Source: Pseudomonas entomophila L48 (GTDB lineage: Bacteria; Pseudomonadota; Gammaproteobacteria; Pseudomonadales; Pseudomonadaceae). Taken from it: DNA of 64,000 nucleotides. Under the pieces are notes generated by a model. It was not told the origin of the DNA. It worked only from the letters and a program-made list of their open reading frames with translations, and did no database searches. The position numbers were made by a program, and so were the translations under genes. Below are positions 59,825 to 64,000 of this stretch, in pieces (position 1 is the first letter of the stretch; the number at the start of each line of letters is the position of its first letter). The stretch is from positions 3,300,501 through 3,364,500 of the forward strand of contig NC_008027.1 of assembly GCF_000026105.1 (NCBI RefSeq), written 5' to 3'.

Positions 59825-60310
59825 TCAGATGTGGTAGATGTCGATGACCTGGCGCACGTAGTCGTTCTTCAGCACCACCTTCTTGGCCTTGATCAACGGC
59901 TGCTCGCCGCGCAGGTCGAGGGTGTAGAAACTGGTGCCGAAGTAGCTGTCGGTGGTCTTGTAGCGAAAGCTCAGGGTGTGCCAGTTGAAGCGCACCTGGC
60001 AGGTGCCCTCGCCCACCTCGACGACCTCGATGTTGCTGAGGTTGTGCGAGGTGCGGGTGTCCGGCACGGTGGCGCTGGAGCGCTCGGTCTTGATGCGGAA
60101 CACCCGGTCTTCCAGGCCGCCACGGTTGCCGTACCAGATCAGCGAGATCTCGCTTTGCGGGTCTTCGGTCAGCGTGTCGTCGTCATCCCATGACGGCATC
60201 CAGAACGTCGCGTCACTGGCGTACAGCTCCAGCCACTGGTCCCACTGCGCATCGTCCAGATAGCGCGCCTCGCGGTAGAGGAAGTCGCGCACGGTGTCAT
60301 GCAGGCTCAT
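59825..60310 (-). CDS. benB: BenB, benzoate 1,2-dioxygenase beta subunit
   Basis: A 161-residue small subunit with the cone-shaped NTF2-like fold of ring-hydroxylating dioxygenases. Family stretches are [64 protein letters not shown] and [11 protein letters not shown]. It supports the alpha3beta3 hexamer; catalysis is in BenA. The start overlaps the benA stop by 4 bases (ATGA). Confidence 0.93.
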
Positions 60311-61665
60311 TGCACGGCCTCCACGGGGATCAGTCGGGTTTCCTGTTCCAGGGCCTTGAGCATGGTGTCCTGCCAGTACTTGTGCTGCAGCACGAACAGC
60401 CCTTCGTCCTCGGTGCGCACGCCCGACAGCAGCGGCTTGAGCGCGATCTCGCGGGCCGCCTCGTCGGCGCCTTCGATCCAGTGCTGCGCGCCGCGGGACA
60501 TGTCGTTCCAGCCGGTGCCGCCACCATAGCCGGTCTGGCACGAGCGGAACTCCTCCAGGTCGTCCGGGGTGGCCATGCCGCTGACGTTGAAGAAGTCCTC
60601 GTACTGGCGGATACGGCTGGCCCGGGCCTCGGGGCTCTCGCCCTTGGGCGCGATGCAGTAGATGGTGATCTCGGTCTTGTTCACCGAGATCGGCCGGGCG
60701 ATGCGGATCTGCGAACTGAACTGGTCCATCAGGTACACGTTCGGGTACAGGCACAAATTGCGCGAGTTGCCGATCATCCAGTCGGCGCGGGCCTGGCCGA
60801 AATCGGCGGCCAGTTGCTCGCGGTGCTCGTAGGCCGGGCGATCCTCGGGGTTGGCCCAGCGGGTCCACAACAACAGATGGCCGTGGTCGAAGGAGTAGAA
60901 GCCGCCGCCCTGCTTGGCCCAGCCACCGGCGCTCATGGTCTTGATCTCGTCGCCCGCCTCGCGCTGTTTGCGCTGGTTCTGGGTGGCGGCGTAGTTCCAG
61001 TGCACGGAGCTGACGTGGTAGCCGTCGGCGCCGTTCTCGGCGGTGAGTTTCCAGTTGCCTTCGTAGATGTACGAGCTGGCGCCGCGCAGCACTTCCAGGC
61101 CTTCGGGGGACTGATCGACGATCATGTCGATGATCTTCGCCGACTCGCCCAGGTGCTCGACCAGCGGTTTCACATCCGCGTTGAGGCTGCCGAACAGGAA
61201 GCCCCGGTACGACTCGAAGCGGGCGACCTTGGTCAGGTCGTGGGAGCCGTCGCAGTTGAAGCTGTCGGGGTAGCCGGCGTTGCTCGGGTCCTTGACCTTG
61301 AGCAGCTTGCCGCTGTTGTTGAAGGTCCAGCCGTGGAACGGGCAGGTGTAGCTGGCGCGGTTGCCGCGCTTGTGCCGGCAGAGCATGGCGCCGCGGTGGC
61401 TGCAGGCGTTGAGGAAGGCATTGAGCACCCCGTCCTTGTTGCGCGCGATGAAGATCGGCTGGCGCCCCATGGTCAGGGTGAGGAAGTCGTTGTTCTCGGG
61501 GATCTGGCTTTCGTGGGCCAGGTAGATCCAGTTGCCCTCGAAGATGTGTTTCATCTCCAGGTCGAACAGGCGCGGGTCGGTGAACATCTCCCGCTTGCAG
61601 CGATAGACGCCCTTCTCCCGGTCATCCTCGAGCAAGGCGTTGAGATAGTCGAATCCCAGGGACAT
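60307..61665 (-). CDS. benA: BenA, benzoate 1,2-dioxygenase alpha subunit
   Basis: A 452-residue catalytic subunit. The Rieske cluster ligands are Cys88/His90 (ACSHRGA) and Cys108/His111 (CPFHGW). The mononuclear iron site is [15 protein letters not shown] with Asp214, His217 and His222. It adds O2 to benzoate to give the cis-1,2-dihydrodiol. I chose the ATG at 61665 ([14 protein letters not shown]), because GGAGG lies 8 bases upstream and homologues start there; an ATG five codons earlier is in frame. First gene of the ben-cat cluster, under a Pm-like promoter. Confidence 0.94.
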
Positions 61666-61701
61666 GGCCAGGGCCTCCATTGTTATTGTTCAGGCCGGGT
61701 C

Positions 61702-61764: not shown

Positions 61765-61782
61765 GCCAGACGCCGATCAACC

Positions 61783-61871
61783 TGTAGGAGCCAGCCTTGC
61801 TGGCGAACCCAAGGCGCCGCCGTGCCTGCAGACACCGCGCGGCCCGGTTCGCCAGCAAGCTGGCTCCTACA
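61783..61871. repeat. Palindromic intergenic repeat (AGCCAGCTTGCTGG type)
   Basis: Arms TGTAGGAGCCAGCCTTGCTGG and CCAGCAAGCTGGCTCCTACA, between the divergent ben promoter and the DAHP synthase leader. Confidence 0.85.
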
Positions 61872-61906
61872 GCACCCCGTTGCATCGCGTCGATAGCAAT
61901 TACCCA

Positions 61907-61960: not shown

Positions 61961-62080
61961 ATGTCGAAACAAACCCGCAACCACACAAACCACACCGGTC
62001 GCACCGCGCGCCCTGTGCTGGCCGTTGCCGGTCGTAACGCCGTTGCCAGCTTTTATTTTGGGTATTGGTTTAGCCACTAG
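61961..62080 (+). CDS. Leader peptide 1 (Phe/Tyr/Trp-rich attenuation peptide)
   Basis: 39 codons from an ATG with GGAGA upstream. The peptide ends SFYFGYWFSH, with six aromatic residues among seven consecutive non-Ser/His positions near the stop, in control-codon position. A hairpin begins at the stop (GGCGCCG at 62080-62086 with CGGCGCC at 62099-62105), and a strong terminator follows at 62139-62178. This is the classic layout of ribosome-mediated attenuation. Shortage of Phe, Tyr or Trp would stall the ribosome and let transcription run into the DAHP synthase gene. Confidence 0.85.
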   Translation: MSKQTRNHTNHTGRTARPVLAVAGRNAVASFYFGYWFSH

Positions 62081-62138
62081 GCGCCGCTGATACCCACACG
62101 GCGCCCACCTTCGAGGGGCCGCCGAACATGAGAATACT

Positions 62139-62178
62139 CAAACCCCCGGTCGGCTCCCCGACCGGGGGTTTTGCTTTT
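62139..62178 (+). terminator. Attenuator terminator between the two leader peptides
   Basis: Perfect stem AACCCCCGGTCGG (62141-62153) with CCGACCGGGGGTT (62158-62170), 4-base loop CTCC, followed by TTGCTTTT. The GGGGCC at 62115-62120 and the preceding hairpin offer alternative pairing. It lies 60 bases after the leader 1 stop. Confidence 0.9.
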
Positions 62179-62220
62179 CCAGGCCCACGAAAAACACCGA
62201 TTTACATTGAGGACCGATTC

Positions 62221-62370
62221 ATGAACTACGCCAACTACTGCTACGCCAACACCTACACCTGGCGATTTAGCCAATCCCGTTCGGGCCAGCCTGCCGCCTC
62301 CGTTCGGTCGATTTCCGGTGGCAATGCCGCACAACAACCCAATTTGACGACCCGTCGAACACCTCGATAG
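62221..62370 (+). CDS. Leader peptide 2 (Tyr-rich)
   Basis: 49 codons from an ATG with TGAGGA 7 bases upstream. The peptide begins MNYANYCYANTYTWRF: four Tyr, one Trp and one Phe in the first 16 residues, then a Ser/Gln/Arg-rich tail to the stop 50 bases before the DAHP synthase ATG. An in-frame codon at 62128 lies before the terminator and was not used. The control codons are at the start, unlike leader 1, suggesting a second, tyrosine-tuned control, perhaps of translation. No clear U-tract terminator follows. Confidence 0.75.
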   Translation: MNYANYCYANTYTWRFSQSRSGQPAASVRSISGGNAAQQPNLTTRRTPR

Positions 62371-62420
62371 GGCCGACCACGCGGGCCAGAACCCGCCGTC
62401 CGCCCAGGGAAATAAACGCC

Positions 62421-63482
62421 ATGCAAGCCACCAACCTCGCCCTGCCCCTGACCCAACCGCAAGCGGCCAACAGCACCGTCAGCCAACGCTTGCCCAGCCC
62501 GCACCTGCTCAAGCAGCAGATGCCGCTGCCCACCGAACTCGCCCAGCAAGTCCAGGCTCACCGCCAAGCGATCCGCGCCATCCTCGAAGGCCGCGACGAG
62601 CGCCTGCTGGTGGTGGTCGGCCCGTGCTCGCTCCACGACCCGCGCTCGGCCCTGGAATACGCCGACCGCCTCGCCGCCCTCAGCCGCGAAGTCGACGACA
62701 AGCTGCTGCTGGTGATGCGCGCCTACGTCGAGAAGCCCCGCACCACCGTGGGCTGGAAAGGCCTGGCCTACGACCCACACCTGGACGGCAGCGACGACAT
62801 GCACGCCGGCATCGCCCTGTCCCGTGGCCTGATGCTGAGTATGATCGAACGTGGCCTGCCGATCGCCACCGAGCTGCTGCAACCGATGGCCGCCGGCTAC
62901 TTCGACGACCTGCTGGGCTGGGCCGCCATCGGTGCACGCACCACCGAATCGCAGATCCACCGCGAAATGGTCAGTGGCCTGGAGCTGCCCGTGGGCTTCA
63001 AGAACGGTACCGACGGCGGCATCGGCATCGCCTGCGACGCCATGCGCAGCGCCGCCCACCCGCACCGGCATTTCGGTATGGATGCGCAAGGCTACCCGGC
63101 GATCATCGAGACCCTCGGCAACCCAGACACCCACCTGGTGCTGCGCGGCGGCCACAAGGGCCCGAACTACGACGCCACCAGCATCGCCCAGGCACGCCAG
63201 GGGCTGGCCAAGGCCGGGTTGCAGGCGCGGATCATGGTCGATTGCAGCCATGCCAACAGCGGTAAGGACCCGGCGCGTCAGCCGGCGGTGTTCGAGGAGG
63301 TGCTGGCGCAGCGGTTGGGTGGGGATCGCTCGATTGTCGGGGTGATGCTTGAAGGGCACCTGTTCGACGGTTGCCAGGCGTTGGGCAAGGGGGTGTTGAA
63401 GTATGGGGTGTCGATTACCGATGGGTGCTTGGGGTGGAGTTCCACCGAAGCCATGCTGCGCGAAGCGGCTGGGCGGCTGTGA
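62421..63482 (+). CDS. aroF: Class I 3-deoxy-7-phosphoheptulonate (DAHP) synthase
   Basis: A 353-residue type I-alpha DAHP synthase, the first step of aromatic amino acid synthesis (phosphoenolpyruvate plus erythrose-4-phosphate). Active-site segments: VVVGPCSLHDPRSALEYA, RAYVEKPRTTVGWKG, GFKNGTDGG, LRGGHKGPNYD and DCSHANSGKDP with metal-binding His/Cys/Glu/Asp. The length fits AroF/AroG/AroH. The Tyr-rich leader favours the tyrosine-regulated isozyme, but allosteric type cannot be proved from sequence alone. It follows two leader peptides and ends before a strong terminator. Confidence 0.9.
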   Translation: MQATNLALPLTQPQAANSTVSQRLPSPHLLKQQMPLPTELAQQVQAHRQAIRAILEGRDERLLVVVGPCSLHDPRSALEYADRLAALSREVDDKLLLVMRAYVEKPRTTVGWKGLAYDPHLDGSDDMHAGIALSRGLMLSMIERGLPIATELLQPMAAGYFDDLLGWAAIGARTTESQIHREMVSGLELPVGFKNGTDGGIGIACDAMRSAAHPHRHFGMDAQGYPAIIETLGNPDTHLVLRGGHKGPNYDATSIAQARQGLAKAGLQARIMVDCSHANSGKDPARQPAVFEEVLAQRLGGDRSIVGVMLEGHLFDGCQALGKGVLKYGVSITDGCLGWSSTEAMLREAAGRL

Positions 63483-63575: not shown

Positions 63576-64000
63576 TCACAACGGCCTGAATACAACACCC
63601 AGCATGGTTGAGTTATGCGCGGCGCTCGCGGGGATCCAGTGATGGATCAGCTGAGGGCCATAGTTCCAGAACTGATAACCCTCCGGCGCCCGGTTGTACA
63701 CCCAGGTGTGGTAAGTGAACGGCTGGCTGTAGACCCGCCGAATGTCATTTTCCTGGGCGGTGGTGAGCGTCGATGCACCGGCAACACTCGCCGCCCAGTT
63801 GCTGAATTGCGTAGGGCTCATTCGTGTCGTGTTGACCACAGCTTCGACAACATTGGTGACTTGAACGGGATAAGACACCGTACTGCTTCCATCAGTTACC
63901 GAGATAATCGCGTTACCGTTCCTGTTCCCCGTCACCTTCCCTTGTGTGGTTACCGATGCCACGGCCGCATTGTTTGAAGTGTAGGTGTAACGGTTTCCTC
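63576..64000 (-). CDS. Ig-like (Big_2) domain protein, partial C-terminus (runs off right edge)
   Basis: The C-terminal 141 residues of a larger protein. On the minus strand the frame is open to the window edge, reading GNRYTYTSNNAAVASVTTQG then KVTGNRNGNAIISVTD, the typical end of a bacterial Ig-like group 2 (Big_2) domain. A C-terminal tail of about 100 residues follows (SPTQFSNWAASVAGASTLT..., ending VVFRPL) with many Trp and Tyr (TYHTWVYNRAPEGYQFWNYG). An internal Met at 63962 is not the start. Big_2 domains are common in surface or secreted adhesins; the actual role is unknown. Confidence 0.8.
   Translation of the reverse strand, partial: GNRYTYTSNNAAVASVTTQGKVTGNRNGNAIISVTDGSSTVSYPVQVTNVVEAVVNTTRMSPTQFSNWAASVAGASTLTTAQENDIRRVYSQPFTYHTWVYNRAPEGYQFWNYGPQLIHHWIPASAAHNSTMLGVVFRPL

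Follow-up and report, generated by a model that had tools for sequence, protein, structure and literature searches.

Two aromatic leader ORFs stand in tandem in front of aroF, the gene of a type I DAHP synthase, in Pseudomonas entomophila L48, and we confirmed this arrangement throughout the family, in 175 distinct loci. The aroF transcript would then bear two leader genes in series. In our best explanation of the locus, in which our confidence is slightly less than even, transcription attenuation at the RNA known as P15 is followed by a Tyr/Trp/Phe-sensing element in leader 2 that acts on the translation of aroF. If true, two leader-peptide sensors operate in series at the entry step of the shikimate pathway.

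The locus lies on the forward strand of a stretch of 64,000 nucleotides (contig NC_008027.1, positions 3,300,501 to 3,364,500), which we call the window and to which all coordinates refer. Leader 1 (61961..62080, from the ORF list) has 39 residues, ends in SFYFGYWFSH and has a TAG stop; its control codons, Phe-Tyr-Phe-Gly-Tyr-Trp-Phe, occupy 62051-62071. An intrinsic terminator found by a terminator scan follows at 62140..62171. Leader 2 (62221..62370) has 49 residues, begins with MNYANYCYANTYTWRF, also ends in TAG and is preceded by the Shine-Dalgarno sequence GAGGA at 62209..62213. The gap between leader 2 and aroF (62421..63482) is 50 nt and contains the aroF Shine-Dalgarno sequence AGGGA (62406..62410). 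In profile searches the aroF product matched TIGR00034 with 439.2 bits and PF00793 with 251.4 bits, and NF009395 was also above its cut-off; no NCBIfam or Pfam family reached the cut-off for either leader. At E≤0.01, leader 2 has eleven matches among database proteins; the two for which a source is named, one of them from P. entomophila, are both called 'hypothetical protein'. The lengths, the ending of leader 1 and the placement of leader 2 between the terminator and aroF thus agree with the preliminary description of the locus. On the opposite strand, divergent from aroF, is benA (60307-61680; benzoate 1,2-dioxygenase large subunit, TIGR03229, 901 bits). A long inverted repeat seen by eye at 61782-61872, CTGTAGGAGCCAGC... 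/ ...GCTGGCTCCTACAG, which we take to be REP-like, separates the ben genes from leader 1, and a partial ORF at the window end (63576-63998) has a Big_2 domain match at 1.2e-5.

Leader 1 combines a run of codons for amino acids of the pathway with an intrinsic terminator ahead of the gene, as classical attenuators do in their sequence. The terminator had been described as a perfect 13-bp stem; it is indeed intrinsic, with a U-rich tail and a 4-nt loop, but its stem has 14 pairs, 10 of them G-C. A cmscan search placed RF00627, 'Pseudomonas sRNA P15', at 62047..62168 with 115.1 bits (E 4.6e-24, gathering cut-off 70), and this match takes in the leader-1 control region, the hairpins and the terminator. 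Leader 1 with its terminator therefore appears to be a known Rfam RNA under another label, that of an sRNA gene, whereas the anatomy in the window points to an aroF attenuator. If this is true, 'sRNA P15' is recast as the terminated half of an attenuator. Leader 1 was found upstream of leader 2 in all 175 distinct loci, 170 with the strict core and five with a one-base variant recognized on inspection. Its last 14 codons include five to eight aromatic residues in all 173 rows with an assigned start (out of 179 rows, four repeats included), and a G run followed by a U run marks the terminator region in 173 of 174 rows. In two loci (L003 and L004) we noted by eye that both strands of the first P15 stem are changed, to GGUUAU/AUAACC against GGGUAU/AUACCC elsewhere, which would lend support to that stem; L093 has a variant in the same stem with the opposite strand unchanged. 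Livny 2006 is said to be the original P15 paper and Panina 2001 reportedly deals with attenuators, and leader 1 may already have been predicted as an attenuator in the earlier literature. In two papers, P15 is proposed as a riboswitch on the grounds of synteny (PMC2527527) and its function is described as unknown (PMC5627042).

The linkage of P15, leader 2 and this particular AroF was followed through the genus and the family. A protein search with leader 2 gave a match at E≤0.1 in 126 of 149 genus genomes. In four of these the best E was above 0.01 and the matches are chance sites: this AroF is missing from three of the four genomes, and in the remaining one (G028) leader 2 is found at another place, downstream of P15. 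An AroF hit was present in 122 of the 123 genus loci fetched, L123 being without one. We followed 25 genomes further, namely the window's own, the four with weak matches and 20 of the 23 without a match. P15 was present in 13 of the 25, and the 12 of these other than the window's own each have a shorter leader 2 between P15 and aroF (eight were read directly; L126, L128, L130 and L136 by the parsed S element, stop and start). The other 12 have neither P15, nor leader 2, nor this AroF, and carry only a paralogue of 52-55% identity. Hence, P15, leader 2 and this AroF are linked in the genomes examined. In the family, P15 was found at E≤0.001 in 87 of 119 genomes and 14 of 19 genera, with 84 over the cut-off. 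We read 52 loci behind P15 hits, some repeated, in which leader 2 was parsed 47 times and recognized by eye four times; in the one left, L200, leader 2 is present without the S element described below. Together with the earlier loci these cover all 14 P15-bearing genera. Among the 120 matches listed in a genome-collection scan, at least 36 stretches have the P15 core upstream of a short leader 2, in Stutzerimonas stutzeri, S. chloritidismutans, Halopseudomonas xiamenensis, Pseudomonas mendocina, P. citronellolis, P. alcaligenes and others. No genome covered at the aroF locus goes by the name P. aeruginosa. The pattern of S, 15-45 nt and CGAACA has no occurrence in the window's own genome, the gap in the window itself being 86 nt.

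The counts given here for 175 loci, in 56 clusters, come from sets of 179 rows after removal of four repeats (L193, L194, L195 and L114). L114 repeats L141 with a misassigned aroF start; the start of L171 is doubtful, and others may be so. Four loci (L026, L045, L104 and L121) escaped the motif search, and leader 2 is present in the same genomes as L139, L142, L138 and L140, respectively. L178, L200 and L202-L204 are outside the parsed set; by eye, L178 and L202-L204 have a leader 2 with TGGCGATTT.

The leader-2 ORF is evidently conserved and rich in Tyr; its translation and regulatory role are putative. In the window, its Tyr codons begin at 62227, 62236, 62242 and 62254 and are followed at 62260..62269 by element S, TGGCGATTTA, which carries the Trp-Arg-Phe codons and is a candidate anti-RBS strand. 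The same order, Tyr codons and then Trp-Arg-Phe, nearly always spelled UGGCGAUUU, recurs in the 175 distinct loci. When the nearest ATG preceded by a Shine-Dalgarno sequence was sought upstream of TGGCGATTT, with any frame allowed, the rule found one in 173 of the 175 loci, in frame in 173 of 173, and two to five Tyr codons precede the Trp in 175 of 175, making up 27% of the residues there; since the loci are related, these frame and Tyr counts are not independent trials. A Shine-Dalgarno-like site precedes the chosen ATG in all 179 rows, four repeats included. The spacers outside the ORF are spread over the three phases, with 57/58/52 of 167 loci before leader 2 and 69/63/43 of 175 before aroF. 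Leader 2 thus has the Shine-Dalgarno sequence and the aromatic codon run of an attenuator ORF, and the conservation of its Tyr codons in relatives, on which the preliminary description had made its reading depend, held in all 175 loci. That description had the second leader respond mainly to Tyr. Its richness in Tyr stands, but with a nearly invariant Trp and Phe leader 2 is probably not a sensor of Tyr alone.

Leader 2 occurs in two forms. In the short form (51 loci) the stop lies 18-20 codons past the Trp in 50 loci and 22 in one, whereas in the long form, to which the window belongs (124 loci), it lies at 32-41 codons, in 108 loci at 36, the greater distance being due to an insert that bears the helices A and B discussed below. 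The stop is TAG in 169 loci, TGA in three and TAA in three. Near the end, an Arg-Thr pair, CGAACA (62356..62361 in the window), is in frame in the long and most of the short forms; the last CGAAC[AG] is in frame with S in 155 of the 169 loci that have one. L099 has kept the WRF codons together with the conserved central part of leader 2 but has lost the frame near the end (one of 118). L200 (607-706) is a natural S variant, in which UGGCGAUUU is lost and the ORF, the Tyr, the Trp and the Arg-Thr are kept.

A second stage of classical transcription attenuation, as suggested by the preliminary description, is unlikely. In 174 of 175 loci the interval that runs from the leader-2 stop to the aroF start codon is free of TTTT (the exception is L138), and so, again in 174 of 175, is that from S to the leader-2 stop (the exception is L014). 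The terminator scan of the window returned the terminator of leader 1 and no second one. Without a U run ahead of aroF, it is unlikely that a second intrinsic terminator is the general mechanism. The missing U run would also fit a Rho-dependent transcription attenuation, in which translation of leader 2 controls the access of Rho to the C/A-rich last third of the ORF, where CAC, ACA and GCA codons abound past GGUGGC. A stalled ribosome would expose this stretch rather than hide it, however, and the long C/A-rich stretch is missing from the short forms, and we regard control by Rho as quite unlikely. Control by the leader-2 ribosome after the termination decision, most likely at the level of translation, is the reading we retain.

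The strongest conservation of leader 2 is at the level of the RNA and is located past the Tyr codons. We compared codon usage in 117 long forms, from which L123 (no AroF hit) and L099 (frame lost) were excluded. Leaving aside Met, Trp and the stop, 14 columns have one residue in at least 98% of the sequences, and in 12 of these 14 a single codon is used in at least 98%. Within a stretch of 110 codons of aroF from the same 117 loci, 59 columns are equally conserved and none of the 59 keeps its codon. TGG CGA TTT is found in 117 of 117 long forms; at CGAACA, CGA is found in 117 and ACA in 115 of 117. The frozen codons include rare ones: in a rough tally of 35 window ORFs, CGA accounts for 3% of Arg codons, UUU for 8% of Phe codons and ACA for 3% of Thr codons. 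As the codons of leader 2 are frozen and those of aroF are not, it is the nucleotides that are selected, and not the residues alone, and leader 2 seems to act through its RNA. The frozen rare codons offer a directly testable RNA element within a mostly unannotated gene.

This freezing bears on two other explanations. Leader 2 may act as a peptide, by ribosome arrest or as a small protein, through its W-R-F and R-T residues. The constant position of the stop in 50 of the 51 short forms would fit, as would L210, in which Phe has changed to Tyr with W-R retained, and L200, which keeps the ORF, the Tyr, the Trp and the Arg-Thr without the S sequence. But the constant distance of an arrest peptide is absent when both forms are taken together (18-22 against 32-41 codons), a comparison that presupposes stalling at the stop, and the freezing goes beyond the residues; we consider a peptide function very unlikely. 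That leader 2 arose as a copy of leader 1, has decayed and has no present function is barely credible. By eye, UGG closely precedes UUUAGC in both leaders (WFSH and WRFSQ), but leader 2 is conserved in 14 genera with its rare codons frozen.

The RNA downstream of S can form several structures. Hairpin C (62371..62404) is situated past the leader-2 stop and ahead of the aroF Shine-Dalgarno sequence. Its folding energy was compared with dinucleotide shuffles, and z was below -1 in 44 of 50 distinct regions, with a mean of -2.87; the six exceptions are L021, L114 (with its misassigned start), L140, L141, L142 and L197. The stem persists while its sequence varies widely. Hairpin A (62277..62307, arms 62277-62284 and 62300-62307) and helix B (62293..62322, GCCGCC at 62293-62298 with GGUGGC at 62317-62322) are confined to the long form. 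In hairpin A, standard pairing is found at seven of the eight pairs in at least 104 of 117 sequences, one pair is altered on both sides in two of 117 and in 113 of 117 one position is left unpaired. The window has U-U mismatches at two of the eight positions, the second of which is mismatched in 13 of 117. The six pairs of helix B are invariant in 117 sequences, which is conservation and not covariation. A and B could form a pseudoknot or exclude each other. S could also pair with the 5' arm of A in a helix D, with 96 to 117 of 117 sequences standard at each pair, and by analogy with segments 1-4 of attenuators D, A and B could be mutually exclusive. Raw covariation (G statistic with APC) was discarded because it is dominated by relatedness. 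We also considered by eye a pairing of S with P15 (UCGCCA) and a frameshift site ahead of A and B.

The position of hairpin C between stop and Shine-Dalgarno sequence is what translational coupling would lead one to expect. In that case, the leader-2 ribosome would open hairpin C and hand over to the aroF start, or else would shield the RNA from Rho and nucleases, with the aromatic codons damping aroF or tuning mRNA decay. The stop is 26-50 nt from the aroF ATG in the 175 loci, and in a natural minimal form found in one genus (L202-L204) it is about 20 nt away, which leaves no space for hairpin C. Moreover, in long forms the predicted cost of opening the RBS is 6.69 kcal/mol with the ribosome at the stop against 7.69 kcal/mol with the ribosome at the Trp codon, a predicted effect of the wrong sign for the switch described below. 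Coupling, in turn, would have the wrong sign for a biosynthetic gene and would leave the frozen UGGCGAUUU and the Tyr run unexplained. Hence, we deem it unlikely and return to a sensing element in leader 2.

In a narrower version of a two-tier attenuator, the Trp and Phe codons of leader 2 double as an anti-RBS strand kept across 14 genera, and the sensor codons and the switch strand would be the same nucleotides; we find this version doubtful. In a swap test over 56 clusters, the energy of S with its own RBS was -11.58 kcal/mol, against -11.12 kcal/mol with swapped partners (z -2.48, P 0.0066; before cleaning z -2.37, P 0.009), whereas the best of eleven control pairings in the cleaned 56-cluster set had a z of -1.27; the P values of the swap tests are uncorrected, with twelve such tests in one round and thirty-six in the cleaned-set round. 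The signal is located in the 20 short-form clusters (P 0.02; masking S there gave -1.13 kcal/mol) and is absent in the 36 long-form clusters (P 0.25; -0.58 kcal/mol), where one of the eleven controls, S against aroF +70, outdid S with the RBS (P 0.019). Segments of leader 2 were also masked in the stop state. Averaged over the 56 clusters, the largest opening of the RBS came from the segments at S, at offsets -15 to 0 (-0.67 to -0.97 kcal/mol), but S was among the top tenth of masked segments in no more than 12 of the 56, and a segment near the ORF start (offset -42) equalled S in long forms. In the window itself (L001), masking S or UGGCG changed the predicted opening of the RBS by 0.0. In 117 loci, a ribosome placed at successive positions of leader 2 did not affect the opening of the RBS consistently, save for a rise of 0.8 kcal/mol at one late position.

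At P < 0.05, the S-RBS duplex stood out in 16% of 134 loci against a shuffled RBS and in 30% against a shuffled S, and in the same 134 loci 35% of the aroF coding segments, on average, paired with S as well as or better than the RBS did. By eye, GACUGGCG is complementary to CGCCAGUC at the start codon in L207 and L208, and GCAUGGCGAUUU to AAAUCGCCAUGC in L024. A reckoning of footprints in the long form indicates that a ribosome at the last Tyr would leave S uncovered. L202-L204, with no hairpin C, and L200, with no S, likewise speak against the switch. Overall, the modelled energies give UGGCG as an anti-RBS strand modest specific support, in the short-form genera only.

The ORF and its conservation, the codon freezing, hairpin C, the missing U run and the P15/AroF linkage are direct observations, and from them we infer the translation of leader 2, the stalling, the switch and its sign as follows. 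In the first stage, going by the anatomy of classical attenuators, the ribosome on leader 1 (FYFGYWF) would choose between the P15 hairpins and the terminator. Transcripts that read through would carry leader 2, which would act past the termination decision, most likely on aroF translation. With aromatic aminoacyl-tRNAs plentiful, the ribosome would reach the leader-2 stop and cover the 5' arm of hairpin C, leaving UGGCG free for the RBS region. With these tRNAs scarce, it would wait at Tyr, Trp or Phe codons and cover UGGCGAUUU, so that hairpin C could form and the RBS would be freer. Given the energies in the long forms and in the window, we hold the class of mechanism, control of aroF by the leader-2 ribosome, above this particular switch.

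Neither leader 2 nor a role of P15 as the aroF attenuator was found described in the open-access literature searched or in passages of PMC8297930, PMC2375449, PMC2527527, PMC4263517, PMC5627042, PMC6882275, PMC10360455, PMC9395534, PMC8772962 and PMC5343134. Three of these deal with a DAHP synthase gene named aroF-1, putatively the same as aroF of the window: PMC6882275 and PMC10360455 as a target of engineering in P. taiwanensis, and PMC9395534 in a discussion of P. putida. By a term search, 'leader' occurs in none of the three main texts and 'attenuat' in neither of the first two. The cmscan of the window gave no Rfam family at leader 2 on the same strand at E≤1. Leader 2 is an element for which we found no description and which is selected as RNA.

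Some known systems come close to this one. In mgtCBR, the leader ORFs mgtM and mgtP stand in series and sense different signals; aroF is similar in its two serial leader ORFs, but the signals and the gene are others. The trp and pheA leaders are ribosome-mediated transcription attenuators of amino acid operons (PMC1183508). At ermB, the leader ORFs ermBL and ermBL2 likewise precede one gene and control is at the level of translation, but according to the abstract, which mentions no terminator stage, induction is by antibiotic rather than by amino acid shortage (PMC8274638). Leader 1 shares with the trp and pheA attenuators the aromatic codon run, the hairpins and the intrinsic terminator before a biosynthetic gene. 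The aroF locus differs from them in having a second aromatic leader past the terminator and no U run before aroF.
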